Part shown: piece after piece, positions 29,135-44,178 of the stretch
How the letters are laid out: every line of letters begins with the position of its first letter
Position numbering within the stretch: position 1 is the stretch's first letter
Assembly (NCBI RefSeq): GCF_004117075.1
Contig: NZ_CP026721.1
Location: 1,488,001 to 1,552,000, forward strand
Length of the DNA: 64,000 nucleotides
Direction of reading: 5' to 3'
Source: Fervidobacterium changbaicum
GTDB lineage: Bacteria > Thermotogota > Thermotogae > Thermotogales > Fervidobacteriaceae
Program-made: the position numbers and the translations under genes
Notes under the pieces: model-generated
Told to the model about the DNA's origin: nothing
The model's database searches: none
Seen by the model: only the letters and a program-made list of their open reading frames with translations

Positions 29135-29156
29135 TCAATTGAAAGGAGGTTCTTGT

Positions 29157-30356
29157 ATGAATAACTTCTCCATATTCGTCGGCATCGATGTTTCCAAGGA
29201 TAAGTTCAACGTCTGCGCTATCTCTAATCCCAGTTCCATCATCTTCGAATCTTCTTTCGATATGTCCCAGCAAGGCTTTTCCTCCTTCGCAAACAAACTC
29301 TCTGCCTTCCCAAAACAATCCATCATCATCGCTATGGAATCTACTGGCTGTTATCATCTCAACCTTCTGGCTTTCCTTTCTTCCAACGACTTTGCTTGCG
29401 CTGTTTTTAATCCTCTAACTGTTAAAAACTTTGCTTCTCTTCGAAAGACCAAAACCGACAAAATCGATGCTCGCATTATCGCTACTGCTTTGTTTTACCT
29501 ACAACATCAAATTCCTTCTTCTGCTTTTGTCAACTCTGAGCTTCGTGATATTGTCAGAGCACGCGAAAACATTATCCACCGCATCGCAAAAGTTAAAGGC
29601 AATATCGAAAAACTGCTCAACGTTCTTTTCCCTGAACTCGAAAGAGTTACCAATATCTACAGTGACACTATCCTCAATCTTCTTTCTCATTTCCCTTCTG
29701 CCAAGGCTATTCAAAAGGCTCGTAATCTGGATGTGTTCTTTTCCAAAGACCGTGGCAGAAGTACAAAACTTAATGCTCAAAAACTTAAAGAACTCGCTAA
29801 TAACTCGATTGCTCAATATTGGCCGATGAAAGAAAAGATTCTTGTGCAAAATATCAAAGAACTACAATTTTTACAGCAACAGCTTGAAGAATACGACAAG
29901 ATGATGAAAGAATATTGCGAATGTAGTGCGATAAACCTTGATATCGAGATACTCACGTCAATACCAGGTATTGGTGAAAACAGCGCGATGCATTTCTTGG
30001 CAGAAGTTGGAGATATCTCAAGATTTAGTACATACAAAAAACTCATTGCGTATTGTGGACTCGATCCAAGCATTGCCCAATCAGGCAAAAGCAAAGTAGA
30101 AGGACACATATCGAAAAGGGGCAATGCCCACCTAAGACGAATACTATGGCTAATGGCAGTGAGTGTAGTGATTCACAACGAATATTTCCGAACATACTAT
30201 GAACGAAAAAGGCAGCAAGGTTTACCGTACAAAAAAGCGATAATGTCAGTAGTACACAAGTTATTGCGAACGTTGTACGCAATGTTGAGAAAGAAAGAGA
30301 AGTTCAATATTGATTATGCTATCTCACACTCAAAACAAAAATTTAATTTTGCATAG
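29157..30356 (+). CDS. IS110-family transposase (DEDD recombinase)
   Basis: This RNA-guided recombinase has 399 residues. The N-terminal RuvC-like domain has the DEDD residues at D11 (FVGIDVSKDKF), E61 (AMESTGCY), D101 and D104 (KTDKIDARI). The middle is a coiled-coil segment. The C-terminal Tnp domain has LTSIPGIGENSA, YCGLDPSIAQSGKS (candidate catalytic Ser309) and GNAHLRR. All residues look intact, so the gene may be active. ATG 29157 has AAGGAGG upstream. Codon use shifts from C/T-rich in the first half to purine-rich in the second half near 29800. Confidence 0.95.
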   Translation: MNNFSIFVGIDVSKDKFNVCAISNPSSIIFESSFDMSQQGFSSFANKLSAFPKQSIIIAMESTGCYHLNLLAFLSSNDFACAVFNPLTVKNFASLRKTKTDKIDARIIATALFYLQHQIPSSAFVNSELRDIVRARENIIHRIAKVKGNIEKLLNVLFPELERVTNIYSDTILNLLSHFPSAKAIQKARNLDVFFSKDRGRSTKLNAQKLKELANNSIAQYWPMKEKILVQNIKELQFLQQQLEEYDKMMKEYCECSAINLDIEILTSIPGIGENSAMHFLAEVGDISRFSTYKKLIAYCGLDPSIAQSGKSKVEGHISKRGNAHLRRILWLMAVSVVIHNEYFRTYYERKRQQGLPYKKAIMSVVHKLLRTLYAMLRKKEKFNIDYAISHSKQKFNFA

Positions 30357-31701: not shown

Positions 31702-31736
31702 AAACAAGCGGGGCGAATTGCCCCGCATGTTTGTTT
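31702..31736. terminator. Bidirectional terminator after fliE
   Basis: GCGGGGC (31708-31714) pairs with GCCCCGC (31720-31726) around the loop GAATT. The stem is flanked by A-rich sequence on the left and T-rich sequence on the right, so it can serve both fliE (+) and the coiled-coil protein gene (-). Confidence 0.88.
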
Positions 31737-31775: not shown

Positions 31776-32858
31776 TTATTCCTTTGGCATTACAAAAGGA
31801 AGAACAACCGCGATTGCTCCAAGCACTACTCCAAGCCACGCGATCATATTAACGTTGTTCACTTTCTCTTCAACGACTTTTGCGTCAGCTTTCGTATCGA
31901 TCTTTGCCTGGAGATCTTTTACAGCTGCATTGAGTTCTTCTGTGCTTGCTTTTGTGTCGATCTTTGCTTGGAGGTCTTTTGCTGTGTCGTTAATCTGTTT
32001 CCTCAGCAAGTAATCTGTATCTCCGATTTGTGCGGCAAGGCCTGTGATTATCTCGTTCAAACCCGCAATTTGTTCTTGCAGATCTACAATAGTTGCTTCA
32101 AGAGTATCAACCTGTTCCCTGTCGGCCTTCATGGAGAGGTTGTCGTATATGTTGACAATGTCTTGGTCATGCATATCAAGTCTGAGGGCAAGTGATTCTA
32201 CAATAGACGATGCTTCTTCCTGAGCAGCAAGGGCTTCTTGAATTTGTGCAATTTGTTCGGAGAGCATACCAAGGGTGTCGTATATCTTGAGGATGTCACT
32301 GTCGTGAATGTCAAGCGTTACTTTGAGGTCATCAAGTTGTGGTTGTAACTCATCCATGATCGCGGTTTTAACTTCTTCTTTAGCCGCATCAAGTGAAACT
32401 TCCACAAAAGATGTCAACCTTTCGTCAAGCGCTGCGAGGTTCGCAGAAAGTTCGTAGAGCATATCCCTTAGTGCTGGCAAACCCGTATCAATAGTGCTTT
32501 GAATGTTGAGAACTTTCGTTTCAAGTTCTGAAAGTCTTTCGTCGAGTTCTGCAAATGTTCCTTCAATTTCAGAAAGTGCTACCTCAAACTCATCCAGTGA
32601 GACTTTTGTTCCGAGTGTGTCGTAGATCATGTTGGTGTACTCTTCCAAAAGTTCAATCCTATTGATAAGTGTTTCTACTTCAGAAAGCACTGATTCAAAC
32701 TCGTCCACTGAAACCTTTGTTCCAACTGTGTCATAGATCATGTTGGTGTACTCTTCCAAAAGCTCAATCCTGCTAAGAAGTGCTTCCATGTCAACTTCTT
32801 GAGCAAACGCAAATATCCCGAAAAGAACGACCGCAATAAGAATCCCCAGTTTCTTCAT
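31776..32858 (-). CDS. Omp-alpha-like coiled-coil envelope protein without SLH domain
   Basis: The 360-residue protein has a signal peptide (KKLGILIAVVLFGIFAFA), a long coiled coil and a C-terminal hydrophobic anchor (MIAWLGVVLGAIAVVLPFVM). It matches the middle and end of the Omp-alpha-like protein encoded at 41334, sharing RIELLEEYTNMIYDTVGTKV-type units and TGLPALRDMLYEL, but has no N-terminal SLH domain. The unit RIELLEEYTNMIYDT occurs twice in tandem, and HDxDIxxIYD units occur later. The SD AAAGGAGGG precedes the ATG. Omp-alpha is the rod-like spacer between cell body and toga; this paralogue could make a second spacer that cannot bind the wall by SLH. Confidence 0.75.
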   Translation of the reverse strand: MKKLGILIAVVLFGIFAFAQEVDMEALLSRIELLEEYTNMIYDTVGTKVSVDEFESVLSEVETLINRIELLEEYTNMIYDTLGTKVSLDEFEVALSEIEGTFAELDERLSELETKVLNIQSTIDTGLPALRDMLYELSANLAALDERLTSFVEVSLDAAKEEVKTAIMDELQPQLDDLKVTLDIHDSDILKIYDTLGMLSEQIAQIQEALAAQEEASSIVESLALRLDMHDQDIVNIYDNLSMKADREQVDTLEATIVDLQEQIAGLNEIITGLAAQIGDTDYLLRKQINDTAKDLQAKIDTKASTEELNAAVKDLQAKIDTKADAKVVEEKVNNVNMIAWLGVVLGAIAVVLPFVMPKE

Positions 32859-33164
32859 GCTTAATCCCTCCTTTTAAAAGTGTGATAATGTAGAACCCAA
32901 AAAACACCCGGTTTTTAACTAATAAAGAAGATTAACGTATCTCAAATATCGAACTGTCCAAATTGAGAAGTTCAACTAAATTATATTATAGCACCATTTT
33001 ACAAAAATTTGTAAATAGCTATCTTCAAAAATTCCATAGAAATCCAGCGTTTTTCCATTGGAAACCTGAGAAATTGGCGCTATACGTTTTTTAATCAACT
33101 TTTTCCGAATGTTAAATAACACTTCTTCTCAAAATATAGATAAAACGTGGGCGCGATTCTAAAC
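32859..33164. other. Intergenic region between coiled-coil gene and rpsO promoter
   Basis: No gene is seen in this AT-rich stretch. It holds the promoter and about 120 bases of leader of the minus-strand coiled-coil gene, with an AT-rich palindrome at 32998-33015. The remaining bases up to the rpsO -35 show nothing I can assign. Confidence 0.5.
32985..33015 (-). promoter_or_regulatory. Promoter and palindromic operator of the coiled-coil gene
   Basis: On the minus strand TATAAT (32990-32985) is preceded at 18-19 bases by TTACAA or TTTACA. The -35 region lies in a palindrome with perfect 8-base arms, TTTACAAA and TTTGTAAA (32998-33005 and 33008-33015), separated by AA. Its position suggests a repressor or activator site. 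Confidence 0.5.
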
Positions 33165-41333: not shown

Positions 41334-42680
41334 ATGAGAAAAGTATTAGCGTTATTGGCGGTTATTGTTCTTGTCACATTCTCCATGGCAGCTTTTAGAG
41401 ACATTCCGAAGGGGCATTGGGCGGAATCATTTGTGACAAGGCTGGAAGAGGCAGGAATTGCGACGGGGTTTCCCGATGGAACATACCGTGGTGATGAAGC
41501 GATAACGAGATACCAAATTGCGGTATTTTTGGTTAGAACTCTCGATTATGTTTTCCAGACTGTTGATTCCAGCTTGGTAAATTTAAAGTCACAGTTTGAA
41601 AGCGATGCCAAAAAGCTTGAAAACGATATAAATGCACAGTTTGCTGCGGTTAAACAAGACATAGAAGAACTCCAGATAGCGCTTGAGGATGCAAAGTTAG
41701 TTCTTGAACTTCACGACCAAGATATTATAAAGTTATATGACCTCGTCAATTCACTTCAGGATAAGTTCGTTTACACAGATGATGAAGGCAATCAGCAAGA
41801 AGTAGACCTTGCTGCGTTGAAGAGCGATGTACAAACGATCAGTGAAATCCTCAACGGTTTGGCTGCTCAGCTTGGCGATGTAGATTACCTTTTGAGAAAA
41901 CAAATTGCCGACACAAATAAAGACCTTTCATCACAGATAGCAGAGGTCAAAACTAAGGTCGATGCAATAGACCTCGGAACAAAAGTAGACAAGGAAGTAT
42001 TCGAAGGTTTGGTTTCAAGAGTTGAACTCTTGGAAGAATACGTAAATATGGTATACGAAACCCTTGGGACAAAAGTATCTTCTGATGAATTCGAAAGTGT
42101 AATCTCTGAATTAGATGCGAGGATTTCTGAGCTTGAAACACAGGTTCTGAACATTAAGAGCACGCTTGATACAGGATTGCCAGCGATTAGAGATATGGTT
42201 TACGAGCTATACAACAACATCGCAGCACTCGAAGAAAGGGTTACATCGTACACGGATGTCAGGATAGATGAACTGTACACAGAATTGCAAACACTGAAAG
42301 ACGATATCGAACTCAATGCAGCAAAGCTTGCAGAACTTGAAGAAACTGTAGCGAATAATTATGCAACGCTAGAAGACGCGATCCTGGGACTTTACGAAGA
42401 ACTGAACGCTGTTAACAATTCGTTATCGTCGAACGTTGAGAGAGTTGAAGTACTGGAGGAAAGGTTGAACTTAGTTGAAAATCAGGTAGCAAGTTTAGAT
42501 CAGATTGTCAACGAAGTCAAAGCTGACAAGAGCGAAGTACAAGAAGTTAGCAAAAAAATTGACGACCTCAAGGCTGAAAAGGCTCAGGATGTTTCCCGCT
42601 TAGAGCAGATGGCCATGTGGGGCATTGGGCTTGGTGTAATTGGTGTTATAATAGGAATAATTGGTTGGTTCAGGCCGTAA
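41334..42680 (+). CDS. omp-alpha: Omp-alpha-like SLH and coiled-coil toga spacer protein
   Basis: This 448-residue protein has a signal peptide (RKVLALLAVIVLVTFSMA), one SLH domain (about residues 20-75, FRDIPKGHWAESFVTRLEEAG and GDEAITRYQ), a coiled coil of about 340 residues, and a C-terminal hydrophobic anchor (MWGIGLGVIGVIIGIIGW). This layout is that of Omp-alpha of Thermotoga, a parallel rod that links the outer toga to the peptidoglycan, with SLH binding the wall and the tail sitting in the outer membrane. The coiled coil contains LEEYVNMVYETLGTK and LHDQDIIKLYD units shared with the paralogue at 31776. AGGGGGT precedes the ATG, and the porin-like gene follows. Confidence 0.9.
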   Translation: MRKVLALLAVIVLVTFSMAAFRDIPKGHWAESFVTRLEEAGIATGFPDGTYRGDEAITRYQIAVFLVRTLDYVFQTVDSSLVNLKSQFESDAKKLENDINAQFAAVKQDIEELQIALEDAKLVLELHDQDIIKLYDLVNSLQDKFVYTDDEGNQQEVDLAALKSDVQTISEILNGLAAQLGDVDYLLRKQIADTNKDLSSQIAEVKTKVDAIDLGTKVDKEVFEGLVSRVELLEEYVNMVYETLGTKVSSDEFESVISELDARISELETQVLNIKSTLDTGLPAIRDMVYELYNNIAALEERVTSYTDVRIDELYTELQTLKDDIELNAAKLAELEETVANNYATLEDAILGLYEELNAVNNSLSSNVERVEVLEERLNLVENQVASLDQIVNEVKADKSEVQEVSKKIDDLKAEKAQDVSRLEQMAMWGIGLGVIGVIIGIIGWFRP

Positions 42681-42760: not shown

Positions 42761-42844
42761 GTGAAGTTGAAAAAGCTATTTTCTTTAGGTTCATTTATAG
42801 ACATTTTAACACCTAAACTTACAGGAGGAGGGAGAAGGTTATGA
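42761..42844 (+). CDS. Possible 27-residue leader ORF coupled to the porin gene
   Basis: A GTG-started frame of 27 codons begins MKLKKLFSLGSF and stops at TGA 42842-42844, overlapping the porin ATG (ATGA at 42841-42844). The GGGGGG site at 42742-42747 is 13 bases upstream, which is long. It could be a translated leader that couples to the porin gene, or a remnant of a signal peptide. Chance cannot be excluded. Confidence 0.25.
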   Translation: MKLKKLFSLGSFIDILTPKLTGGGRRL

Positions 42845-44178
42845 AGAAACTTTTAACGGTTTTGGTAGCACTTTTGGTAGTTGTTAGCATGTTTGCAGCG
42901 GAAAAACCATTCACACTCGGTCCAAACGTAACGTACACAGGAACAGTTAACTTCTCGCTTGTCGTAACAAAAGACGGAGTTGATATTGACGGTTCATTAA
43001 CAAATGTTAAAGCATCGCTTGCATTTGGTCCAACAAGCGATACACAGGCTGGGGCAACATTTAGTATAACTTACGTACCATTTGGTGGAGTTAATCTTAC
43101 ACTCAAGAGCATCACATTCTCCACACCATACTTTGCAGCATTCTACAGCACAGATAAACAGTTTGTAAGTGATTATTTCACAGGTTTGGTCTACAAGCCA
43201 GATGGTACAACCTCATGGGCAGACGCAATGGCAGATTTCAAAGACTCATTAAAACTTACACTCCCAGCAGTTCCAGGTCTTGAGGTTTACTACCTTGACA
43301 AGACATCAGAAGGTAATGCAACATGGTTCAGCGATATGGTTCTTGTAAAATACCCGGTAGCTGGTTTCACAATCGTTGGTGGAACATACAATACAGGTAA
43401 CACAACAACACACGAATTCGGTGCAGGAGTAAAAGGTGCACTCGACTTTGGAATATTCAAACCAAACCTCACAGTATTCGGTGGTATGGTTGATGGCGGA
43501 AAAGGAATGGTAACAGCATACGACGTTATTCTTTCTGGTTCACTCTCACCAGTTACAGGACTAACACTTGCTCCAATATTCAAATTTGCAGAAAACCTTG
43601 ACAAACTCGACTACAAATCAACAAAAATTGAAAACGGTAAATACATCAGCCTTGGTGTAACATACACAACAACATTTGCACCAGTTACGCTTACAGCAAA
43701 AGTTACACCAAAAGTAGACTTCGCATCAGCCAGACCAACGACAACACTTCCACTTAACGAACTTTCAGCAAACATAGCACTCTCACCAGTAACATTCTAT
43801 GTAAAGACAACAAATACTAACCTTTTGACAAACAACCCATTCACACTCTATGCAAAAGCATCTTACGCAGATGCAATGTTGTCCGCAGCTGTTGATGCAA
43901 GCTGGGCAGATATGACACAGCTTGCAACATACACATACATCCATGGAGCAGTAACCATCAAGGCAACACCAGAACTTACACTTTGCTCGGATGTTCACAA
44001 GATAATTGCAAGTACGAACGACTTTGGTTACAACGTTAGAGCAGCATATGCGATCACACCAAACGTAAAGTTGACAGGATCCTACGGAACATTGACAACA
44101 GATTCTAACGATGCTTACACAGTAATCAACACAGACCCAACATGGAACGTTAAACTCACATACACAGCAAGCTTCTAA
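42841..44178 (+). CDS. Omp-beta-like outer-membrane (porin-like) toga protein
   Basis: The 445-residue protein has a signal peptide (KKLLTVLVALLVVVSMFAA) followed by beta-rich sequence high in Thr, Ala, Val and aromatic residues, ending in Phe (KLTYTASF), as outer-membrane barrels often do. Directly behind the Omp-alpha gene, it matches the position and character of the Thermotoga toga porin. Codon choice is strongly biased (Thr is mostly ACA, Pro mostly CCA), as expected of a very abundant protein. GGAGGAGGGAG precedes the ATG, and a terminator follows. The porin role is inferred. Confidence 0.75.
   Translation: MKKLLTVLVALLVVVSMFAAEKPFTLGPNVTYTGTVNFSLVVTKDGVDIDGSLTNVKASLAFGPTSDTQAGATFSITYVPFGGVNLTLKSITFSTPYFAAFYSTDKQFVSDYFTGLVYKPDGTTSWADAMADFKDSLKLTLPAVPGLEVYYLDKTSEGNATWFSDMVLVKYPVAGFTIVGGTYNTGNTTTHEFGAGVKGALDFGIFKPNLTVFGGMVDGGKGMVTAYDVILSGSLSPVTGLTLAPIFKFAENLDKLDYKSTKIENGKYISLGVTYTTTFAPVTLTAKVTPKVDFASARPTTTLPLNELSANIALSPVTFYVKTTNTNLLTNNPFTLYAKASYADAMLSAAVDASWADMTQLATYTYIHGAVTIKATPELTLCSDVHKIIASTNDFGYNVRAAYAITPNVKLTGSYGTLTTDSNDAYTVINTDPTWNVKLTYTASF

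Follow-up and report, generated by a model that had tools for sequence, protein, structure and literature searches.

A gene of Fervidobacterium changbaicum, lying in a window of 64,000 nucleotides (the whole stretch of DNA analysed), belongs to a real and conserved class of rod proteins which have no SLH domain and stand outside OmpA as defined. The genome carrying the window is a single contig of 2,266,349 bases. In the current view, rods fixed at either end keep the toga, the loose outer sheath of this heat-loving bacterium, away from the cell. Three paralogue classes are distinguished here: class A, with SLH, coil and helix; class B, that of the window gene; and class C, without SLH and without the helix. 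The fuller reading, that Fervidobacterium makes class B as an abundant rod of its envelope, held by the outer membrane only and acting as a spacer or brace, is in our judgement evenly balanced between right and wrong.

The sequence-only reading had described the protein as free of SLH, and this was borne out. SLH is absent from the 25 best Pfam matches of the class B protein, whereas the SLH-bearing homologue in the window, OmpA1, has PF00395 at 1.5e-9. None of the four SLH places in its own genome (E up to 1) falls inside the class B gene, and in the order-wide SLH search all 10 class B places went unmatched. The Pfam and NCBIfam searches of class B gave only sub-cut-off matches, which resemble coil hits.

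The distribution was followed by searches at 1e-3, the window protein being run against 20 genomes of the family and an alignment of class B against 45 of the order. Fervidobacterium and a second genus (g1 and g2) together have 11 genomes in the set, and 10 of them carry class B, each time with the anchor and without SLH; the exception, G007, is 60% complete. Class C is present in all 11 genomes of the two genera. Of the 34 remaining genomes, none showed either class among the matches that were read. Elsewhere in the family (nine genomes), the matches were all in SLH proteins (seven read, two judged by SLH coordinates), and the 30 rows read from two other families and G016 represent 29 distinct genes, all with SLH (28 rows by pattern, L113 and L120 by a Pfam match at the same place). 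The ‘second spacer class’ proposed earlier stands as a conserved gene class with strong codon bias, and an additional third class (C) now has to be placed beside it.

In all 10 genomes that have it, the class B gene adjoins an rpsO-like gene, and in 8 of these also a fliE-like gene. In the window, it stands alone, with its own promoter-like site and a hairpin after it (Table 1). The flgB-, flgC- and fliE-like neighbours are convergent and the rpsO-like one divergent (names given by eye from translations). An IS110-like transposase ORF, also named by eye, lies near the flgB-like gene (29139-30356). The promoter-like site is 132 nt upstream of the ATG and is absent from the list of the generic scan; GTG[CA]TATAAT occurs upstream of 8 of the 10 class B genes, the exceptions being G005 and G006. 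The promoter scan of the region gave 4 sites where 3.7 were expected, and the terminator scan 2 against a shuffle mean of 1.4, neither number being above chance. The OmpB-like protein ends in F, and the gene order tyrS-ompA-ompB matches that reported in PMC3387000. The class B and OmpA1 genes are less than 10 kb apart in all 8 genomes that have both on one stretch. In the window, the distance measures 8.5 kb and not 9.5 kb as first stated; from lower coordinate to lower coordinate it is 9.6 kb.

Table 1. Features of the class B gene, its neighbours and the class C gene (window positions unless a locus is given; residues are those of the class B protein).
Feature	Position	Strand	Remarks
Class B rod gene	31776-32858	minus	360 aa; signal peptide, M1-M1-M2-G1-G2-D, anchor T, no SLH
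Signal peptide, residues 1-20	32799-32858	minus	MKKLGILIAVVLFGIFAFAQ; without lipobox; by eye
Module M1 copy 1, residues 28-58	32685-32777	minus	i-E 3e-19, family-trained model
Module M1 copy 2 (tandem), residues 65-95	32574-32666	minus	family model and repeat detection
Module M2, residues 103-156	32391-32552	minus	TGLPALRDMLYEL; family model
Module G1, residues 172-212	32223-32345	minus	HDSDILKIYD; family model
Module G2, residues 219-254	32097-32204	minus	HDQDIVNIYD, LSMKAD; family model
Module D, residues 255-302	31953-32096	minus	LAAQIGDTDYLLRKQI; family model
Module T, C-terminal hydrophobic anchor, residues 326-358	31785-31883	minus	C-terminal hydropathy 2.48 and family model
Putative beta-layer 1, residues 45-50	32709-32726	minus	VGTKVS; matched by register search
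Putative beta-layer 2, residues 82-87	32598-32615	minus	LGTKVS; unmatched, register search nonad 4 residues further on
Putative beta-layer 3, residues 241-246	32121-32138	minus	LSMKAD; matched by register search
Putative beta-layer 4, residues 300-305	31944-31961	minus	IDTKAS; matched by register search
Putative beta-layer 5, residues 320-325	31884-31901	minus	IDTKAD; matched by register search
Promoter-like site	32985-33015	minus	TTTACA and extended -10 (TGC)TATAAT, 19-nt spacer; by eye
Shine-Dalgarno	32866-32872	minus	AGGAGGG; GGAGGG in 10/10 class B genes
Intrinsic terminator-like site	31708-31726	minus	GC-rich hairpin and T run, usable on both strands
Class A: OmpA1 / Omp-alpha homologue	41334-42680	plus	SLH, coil and C-terminal helix
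OmpB / Omp-beta-like barrel protein	42841-44178	plus	downstream of ompA1; Pfam OMP_b-brl below cut-off
Class C gene	L008:5990-7237 = G000:C1:923989-925236		

The blocks that class B had been said to share with the SLH protein were recovered by BLASTP at 2e-40 over 230 residues, together with a second, non-collinear segment at 5e-17. The common blocks are similar, not identical, as in RIELLEEYTNMIYDT of class B and RVELLEEYVNMVYET of OmpA1, or TGLPALRDMLYEL and its OmpA1 counterpart TGLPAIRDMVYEL. Six coil and anchor modules were defined (M1, M2, G1, G2, D and T), and the module maps use the best non-overlapping matches. The tandem copy of the first block is confirmed by two copies 37 residues apart, which TRF reports as a 111-nt unit in 1.8 copies with 85% matches (32584-32786); the two are 78% identical in nucleotides. 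The HDxDIxxIYD units, earlier called ‘several’, number exactly two, one each in G1 and G2.

All six modules occur in every one of the 10 class B proteins. The order M1-M2-G1-G2-D is kept in nine, and in G003, D stands between M1 and M2. G000 and G001 have a second M1 directly beside the first; G005, G006, G008, G009 and G010 have an M1 late in the chain, and G008 has an extra G1. In the nine class A proteins of the two genera, SLH is followed by G1, M2 and T in all nine, D is present in seven and M1 in seven (before G1 or after D), while G2 is present in none. The seven class A proteins read from other genera have G1-G2-M2-D-T (four), D-G2-M2-D-T (two) or D-M2-D-T (one). The 11 class C proteins have M1 and G1 in 11, G2 in 8 and M2 in 6 (one partial), with D and T in none. 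Within the window, class B reads M1-M1-M2-G1-G2-D-T and class A reads G1-D-M1-M2-T. Thus, the same cassettes are used in differing orders by the three classes. The modular growth of rods suggested earlier appears well supported by the maps, with modules duplicated (M1 in the window gene, G1 in G008), moved (D in G003) and reordered between classes. In a poorly resolved M2 tree of 54 columns (10 of 29 inner branches starred, 10 open), the two genera, with 25 rows from classes A, B and C, stand apart from 7 class A rows of other genera (100/100), a split that fits duplication inside their lineage. The M2 identities and the same poorly resolved tree gave no clear sign of concerted evolution of class A and B modules within genomes.

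It has been reported that trimers form a beta-layer at nonad steps in which K-A-D or K-D-D replaces position d, with a tendency to a small residue in the middle of the triplet (PMC4786415; Hartmann 2016). We infer that class B is a parallel trimeric alpha/beta coiled coil with such layers at its TK[A/V][S/D] motifs. The pattern [ILVM]xxK[AVL][DSNGE] occurs 6 times in the window protein against a shuffle mean of 0.60, with 0 of 300 shuffles as high. Over the class B proteins, 0-15 of 300 shuffles were as high; the counts were weaker in class A of the two genera (3-52 of 300) and in some class C proteins (up to 114 of 300). A register search that is blind to the motif and uses hydrophobicity only placed 87 nonads in 10 class B and 11 class C proteins, and 35 of 77 TK[A/V][S/D] motifs were within one residue of a nonad (circular-shift mean 3.3, 0 of 2000 as high). 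In the window protein, four of the six motifs were matched (45, 241, 300 and 320), and those at 82 and 329 were missed, the former being inside the tandem M1. The register set by hand there has position a at 31, 38 and 45, beta at 48-50, a at 54, 61, 68, 75 and 82, beta at 85-87, and a at 91. Since four heptads and one nonad add up to the 37 residues of an M1 period, the duplicate preserves the coil register. K244 and A245 do not vary among the 10 proteins of class B. The AF2 model of the monomer is of poor quality (mean pLDDT 44), with secondary structure almost entirely helix; only its helix breaks were taken, as weak evidence, and five of the six motifs meet its six breaks, a result reached in 5 of 320 circular shifts when the unshifted one is counted. 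The alpha/beta coiled coils of Actinobacillus OMP100 and Tcar0761 have, like class B, the nonad step with a K-A-D/K-D-D type triplet in place of position d. The class B motifs differ in being isolated among heptads, in the form K-[A/V]-[S/D], and are known here from sequence.

The way in which such a rod might work can be proposed as follows. The signal peptide, with an N-terminal hydropathy maximum of 2.52 and aligned and similar in 10 class B proteins, would export the chain, which would fold to the trimeric coil. At 0.1485 nm per residue, the class B coils come to about 39-53 nm, or 73-89% of the OmpA1 coils (52-74 nm), in all nine genomes compared. The C-terminal hydrophobic helix would enter the outer membrane among OmpB porins, as thought for Omp-alpha. 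As there is no SLH, the wall-side end would be free, about 6-20 nm short of the OmpA1 coil-SLH junction. Attachment at the outer membrane only, as first suggested for this protein, is thus plausible. Standing among the ties that OmpA1, OmpA2 and SLH3 form to the wall, class B would then serve as a spacer or brace, keeping the toga off the cell without riveting it, so that the sheath may slide or balloon, and rods would lengthen or shorten through module gain, loss and relocation.

The three SLH-coil-TM rods named here are OmpA1 of the window, OmpA2 (L061:6659-8179) and a third with a degenerate SLH (L062), with loci L136-L151. The third, weaker SLH protein, SLH3 (SLH at G000:C1:457885-458013; also G035:C1:733018-733140), is present in many genomes of the order with open frames mostly of 387-600 aa, and comes in addition to the two OmpA reported in 2012.

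Rod lengths were compared as logs in nine genomes, from SLH to stop for the SLH proteins (a 1000-aa protein in eight) and as the mature chain for class B. Class C was taken after its Cys motif, or from residue 24 in G005, where the motif is absent, and is cut by a contig end in G009. Fifteen pairs were tested, with independent contrasts on a four-protein tree. The SLH rods are closely coupled: OmpA1-OmpA2 has r 0.98 (contrasts 0.98; without G008 0.93 and 0.91), OmpA1-SLH3 0.97 (0.96; without G008 0.93 and 0.84) and OmpA2-SLH3 0.95 (0.93; without G008 0.86 and 0.72). Class B follows OmpA2 with r 0.87 (contrasts 0.85, p 0.004), and without G008 with 0.83 (0.83, p 0.012). With OmpA1, r is 0.83 (contrasts 0.78, p 0.012) and, when G008 is removed, a non-significant 0.69 (p 0.058; contrasts 0.63, p 0.093); with SLH3, it is 0.77 (contrasts 0.66, p 0.051) and 0.56 (p 0.15; contrasts 0.32, p 0.44), respectively. 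The impression from nine genomes that class B tracks OmpA1 closely was weakened once G008 was left out. The lengths of class C (r 0.08-0.35) and of the 1000-aa SLH protein (r -0.01 to 0.36) showed no significant coupling; class C is unchanged without G009, and without both G009 and G005 has r 0.37-0.62 with p at least 0.13 (0.62, p 0.13, with class B). The partial coupling suggests that class B sits in the same gap as the SLH rods and is not unconstrained. That its coupling is looser than that of the SLH ties, with none seen in the anchorless class C, is what is expected of a rod not pinned at both ends.

Order-wide, open-frame lengths were used in 35 of 45 genomes, with rods assigned by hand and without tree correction; the ten dropped were incomplete or had too many SLH proteins to assign. 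On these, OmpA1-OmpA2 has r 0.96, and 0.85 in the 26 genomes outside the two genera, while SLH3 does not follow (r -0.47 and -0.41). The matched lengths of separate rods are the most surprising part of the analysis and lie outside the class B gene itself. OmpA1, OmpA2 and the third SLH rod are a possible joint ruler of the toga gap in the nine genomes. More tentatively, and with doubt outweighing confidence, the width of the toga gap in Fervidobacterium may be evolvable and module-encoded, with OmpA1, OmpA2 and SLH3 held to matched lengths as joint rulers and the outer-membrane-anchored class B as a wall-free sliding brace in the same gap, made of OmpA1's register-preserving cassettes in shuffled order. 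Enteric Lpp and RcsF are a precedent for a coil as ruler, in which the partner must be lengthened too (PMC5771553).

Length matching is not required of a rod that is free at one end, and hence the partial matching also fits a co-assembly of class B with OmpA1 via the common modules, as mixed trimers or side-by-side bundles that set the number of SLH grips per tie or stiffen it. Both proteins hold the same module families, their lengths co-vary in part and their genes are close together. Nevertheless, the module order differs, so that parallel chains from the same membrane mostly would not pair like with like. Moreover, the SLH of SlpA, one per chain, is predicted to be trimeric (PMC9388160), and mixing would spoil this if the same holds here. 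Co-assembly is regarded as rather unlikely, though it is the best placed of the alternatives.

Codon bias was used as a proxy for expression. The reference set comprised 26 genes chosen by their position in the ribosomal-protein region, among which elongation factors and RNA polymerase alpha were recognised by eye, with correction for amino-acid make-up. Among 117 mechanically chosen ORFs, OmpB ranks 1, class B 6, OmpA1 13, OmpA2 56, the 1020-aa SLH protein 57 and class C 107 (over-long start). Class B is thus probably abundant in the envelope. This rank near OmpA1 and OmpB, the length coupling with SLH rods and the lack of any other domain above cut-off in class B speak against a non-structural role, in which the coil would belong to a periplasmic or surface process such as adhesion or enzyme display and the modules would be kept by descent. 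A coiled coil alone does say little on function, and class C has the same modules with no anchor and a low rank; even so, we consider a non-structural role improbable.

Across the 10 class B proteins, the last 40 residues reach a hydropathy maximum of 2.33-2.88. It is unusual for an outer membrane to contain transmembrane alpha-helices, and an alpha-helical anchor could be sited in the inner membrane. The C-terminal helix would then lie in the cytoplasmic membrane with the rod pointing outward, and a signal peptide and a C-terminal helix alone do not select between the membranes. Against this stands the homology of T to the corresponding part of OmpA1, the T. maritima counterpart of which was reported in toga fractions (PMC3387000). 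Omp-alpha, with F. nodosum as an example, is described as SLH, coil and C-terminal TM helix (PMC9388160). A cytoplasmic siting is, by a shade, the less probable of these last two alternatives, and the outer membrane is preferred.

The homology of the modules was assessed with test models trained only on the ten proteins of class B. At 1e-3, on 27 class A and C proteins, these matched M1 in 20, M2 in 23, G1 in 27, G2 in 24, D in 14 and T in 6; M1, G1 and G2 are mutually alike, and their models may match one and the same stretch. The best match in class A reached 3.5e-33. With the T model, matches were obtained in 6 of the 16 proteins of class A, the best at 4.5e-9, and in none of the 11 of class C; T was found in all 16 class A proteins once the models were retrained, the E-values of retrained models being not independent of the family. 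At the same threshold, there were 0 matches in 185 heptad-preserving shuffles, and 0 in 797 further ORFs and in two more SLH-coil proteins of the genome, while 37 reversed proteins gave 3 (one G1, two T; best 1.8e-4). The earlier reading would have been given up had the likeness been lost under proper statistics; it survives BLASTP and the shuffle controls. Convergent coiled-coil composition in place of shared descent, which the spurious profile matches of coils (many sub-cut-off in the family searches) and the three weak reversed matches could be taken to favour, is next to impossible in view of the clean controls and the strength of the best class A match, which count against it for M1, M2, G1, G2 and D, T being the weakest case.

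Among the known systems close to it, Omp-alpha/OmpA1 of Thermotogales (TM0477) shares with class B the signal peptide, a long helical coil, a homologous C-terminal anchor (a hydrophobic C-terminus of about 20 residues) and the common coil modules. Class B differs in having no N-terminal SLH and another module order, and in lying beside the rpsO-like gene instead of in secG-tyrS-ompA-ompB. Two OmpA homologues per species, and one in Mesotoga, are reported in PMC3387000 (Petrus 2012), where the analyses suggest an SLH motif in all OmpA homologues found; those of F. nodosum are Fnod_1724 and Fnod_0047. OmpA2 (TM1729 class) resembles class B in its C-terminal hydrophobic helix and co-varying length, but has SLH, no module match at 1e-3 and a coil-like similarity of only 1e-4. 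The SlpA (Deinococcus)/OmpM tethers also span a wide periplasm by a coil, trimeric with two beta-layers in SlpA; class B, however, has neither their C-terminal beta-barrel, ending instead in a hydrophobic helix, nor their SLH. SlaB is described as a stalk that is trimeric and has a membrane helix at its C-terminus (PMC10903991). This Sulfolobus protein (8QOX) is like class B in joining a coil to such a helix, and the last 114 aa of class B are weakly like it in a PDB sequence search (0.0025). A PDB profile search put the retron effector PtuA (0.00062) above SlaB (0.007), and these are thus coil-level matches. SlaB has N-terminal beta (Ig-like) domains facing SlaA and stands in an archaeal membrane, whereas class B has no such domains, its M1 beginning at residue 28, eight after the signal peptide. 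The resemblance may be convergent.

In the literature searched, mostly at the level of titles and abstract openings, no account of SLH-less Thermotogales rods was found; the accounts consulted give these rods an SLH grip and leave open the reason for more than one OmpA. With two SLH-less shuffled classes and co-varying rods, the width of the giant periplasm becomes a testable question. If rods set the gap, that of G008 (OmpA1 coil about 74 nm) should be much wider than that of G004 (about 52 nm). The expanded togas reported for feather-grown F. islandicum (PMC13157175) offer a setting for measuring these rod proteins.

Two further proteins deserve mention. In class C, the signal peptide is followed by a short His/Cys stretch, GHHHEEGEECACE here and HVHDEECGCE in relatives, and then by the common modules; the stretch is missing in G005 and G007 and is just EECACE in G006. 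It is possibly a metal site on a soluble rod. The 1020-aa SLH-coil-TM protein (L060:7686-10748) is far longer than the other rods and is not length-coupled. No counterpart was found in G009, and those in 7 of the 8 other genomes have 851-1130 aa. Such a protein might extend beyond the usual gap or else double back on itself.
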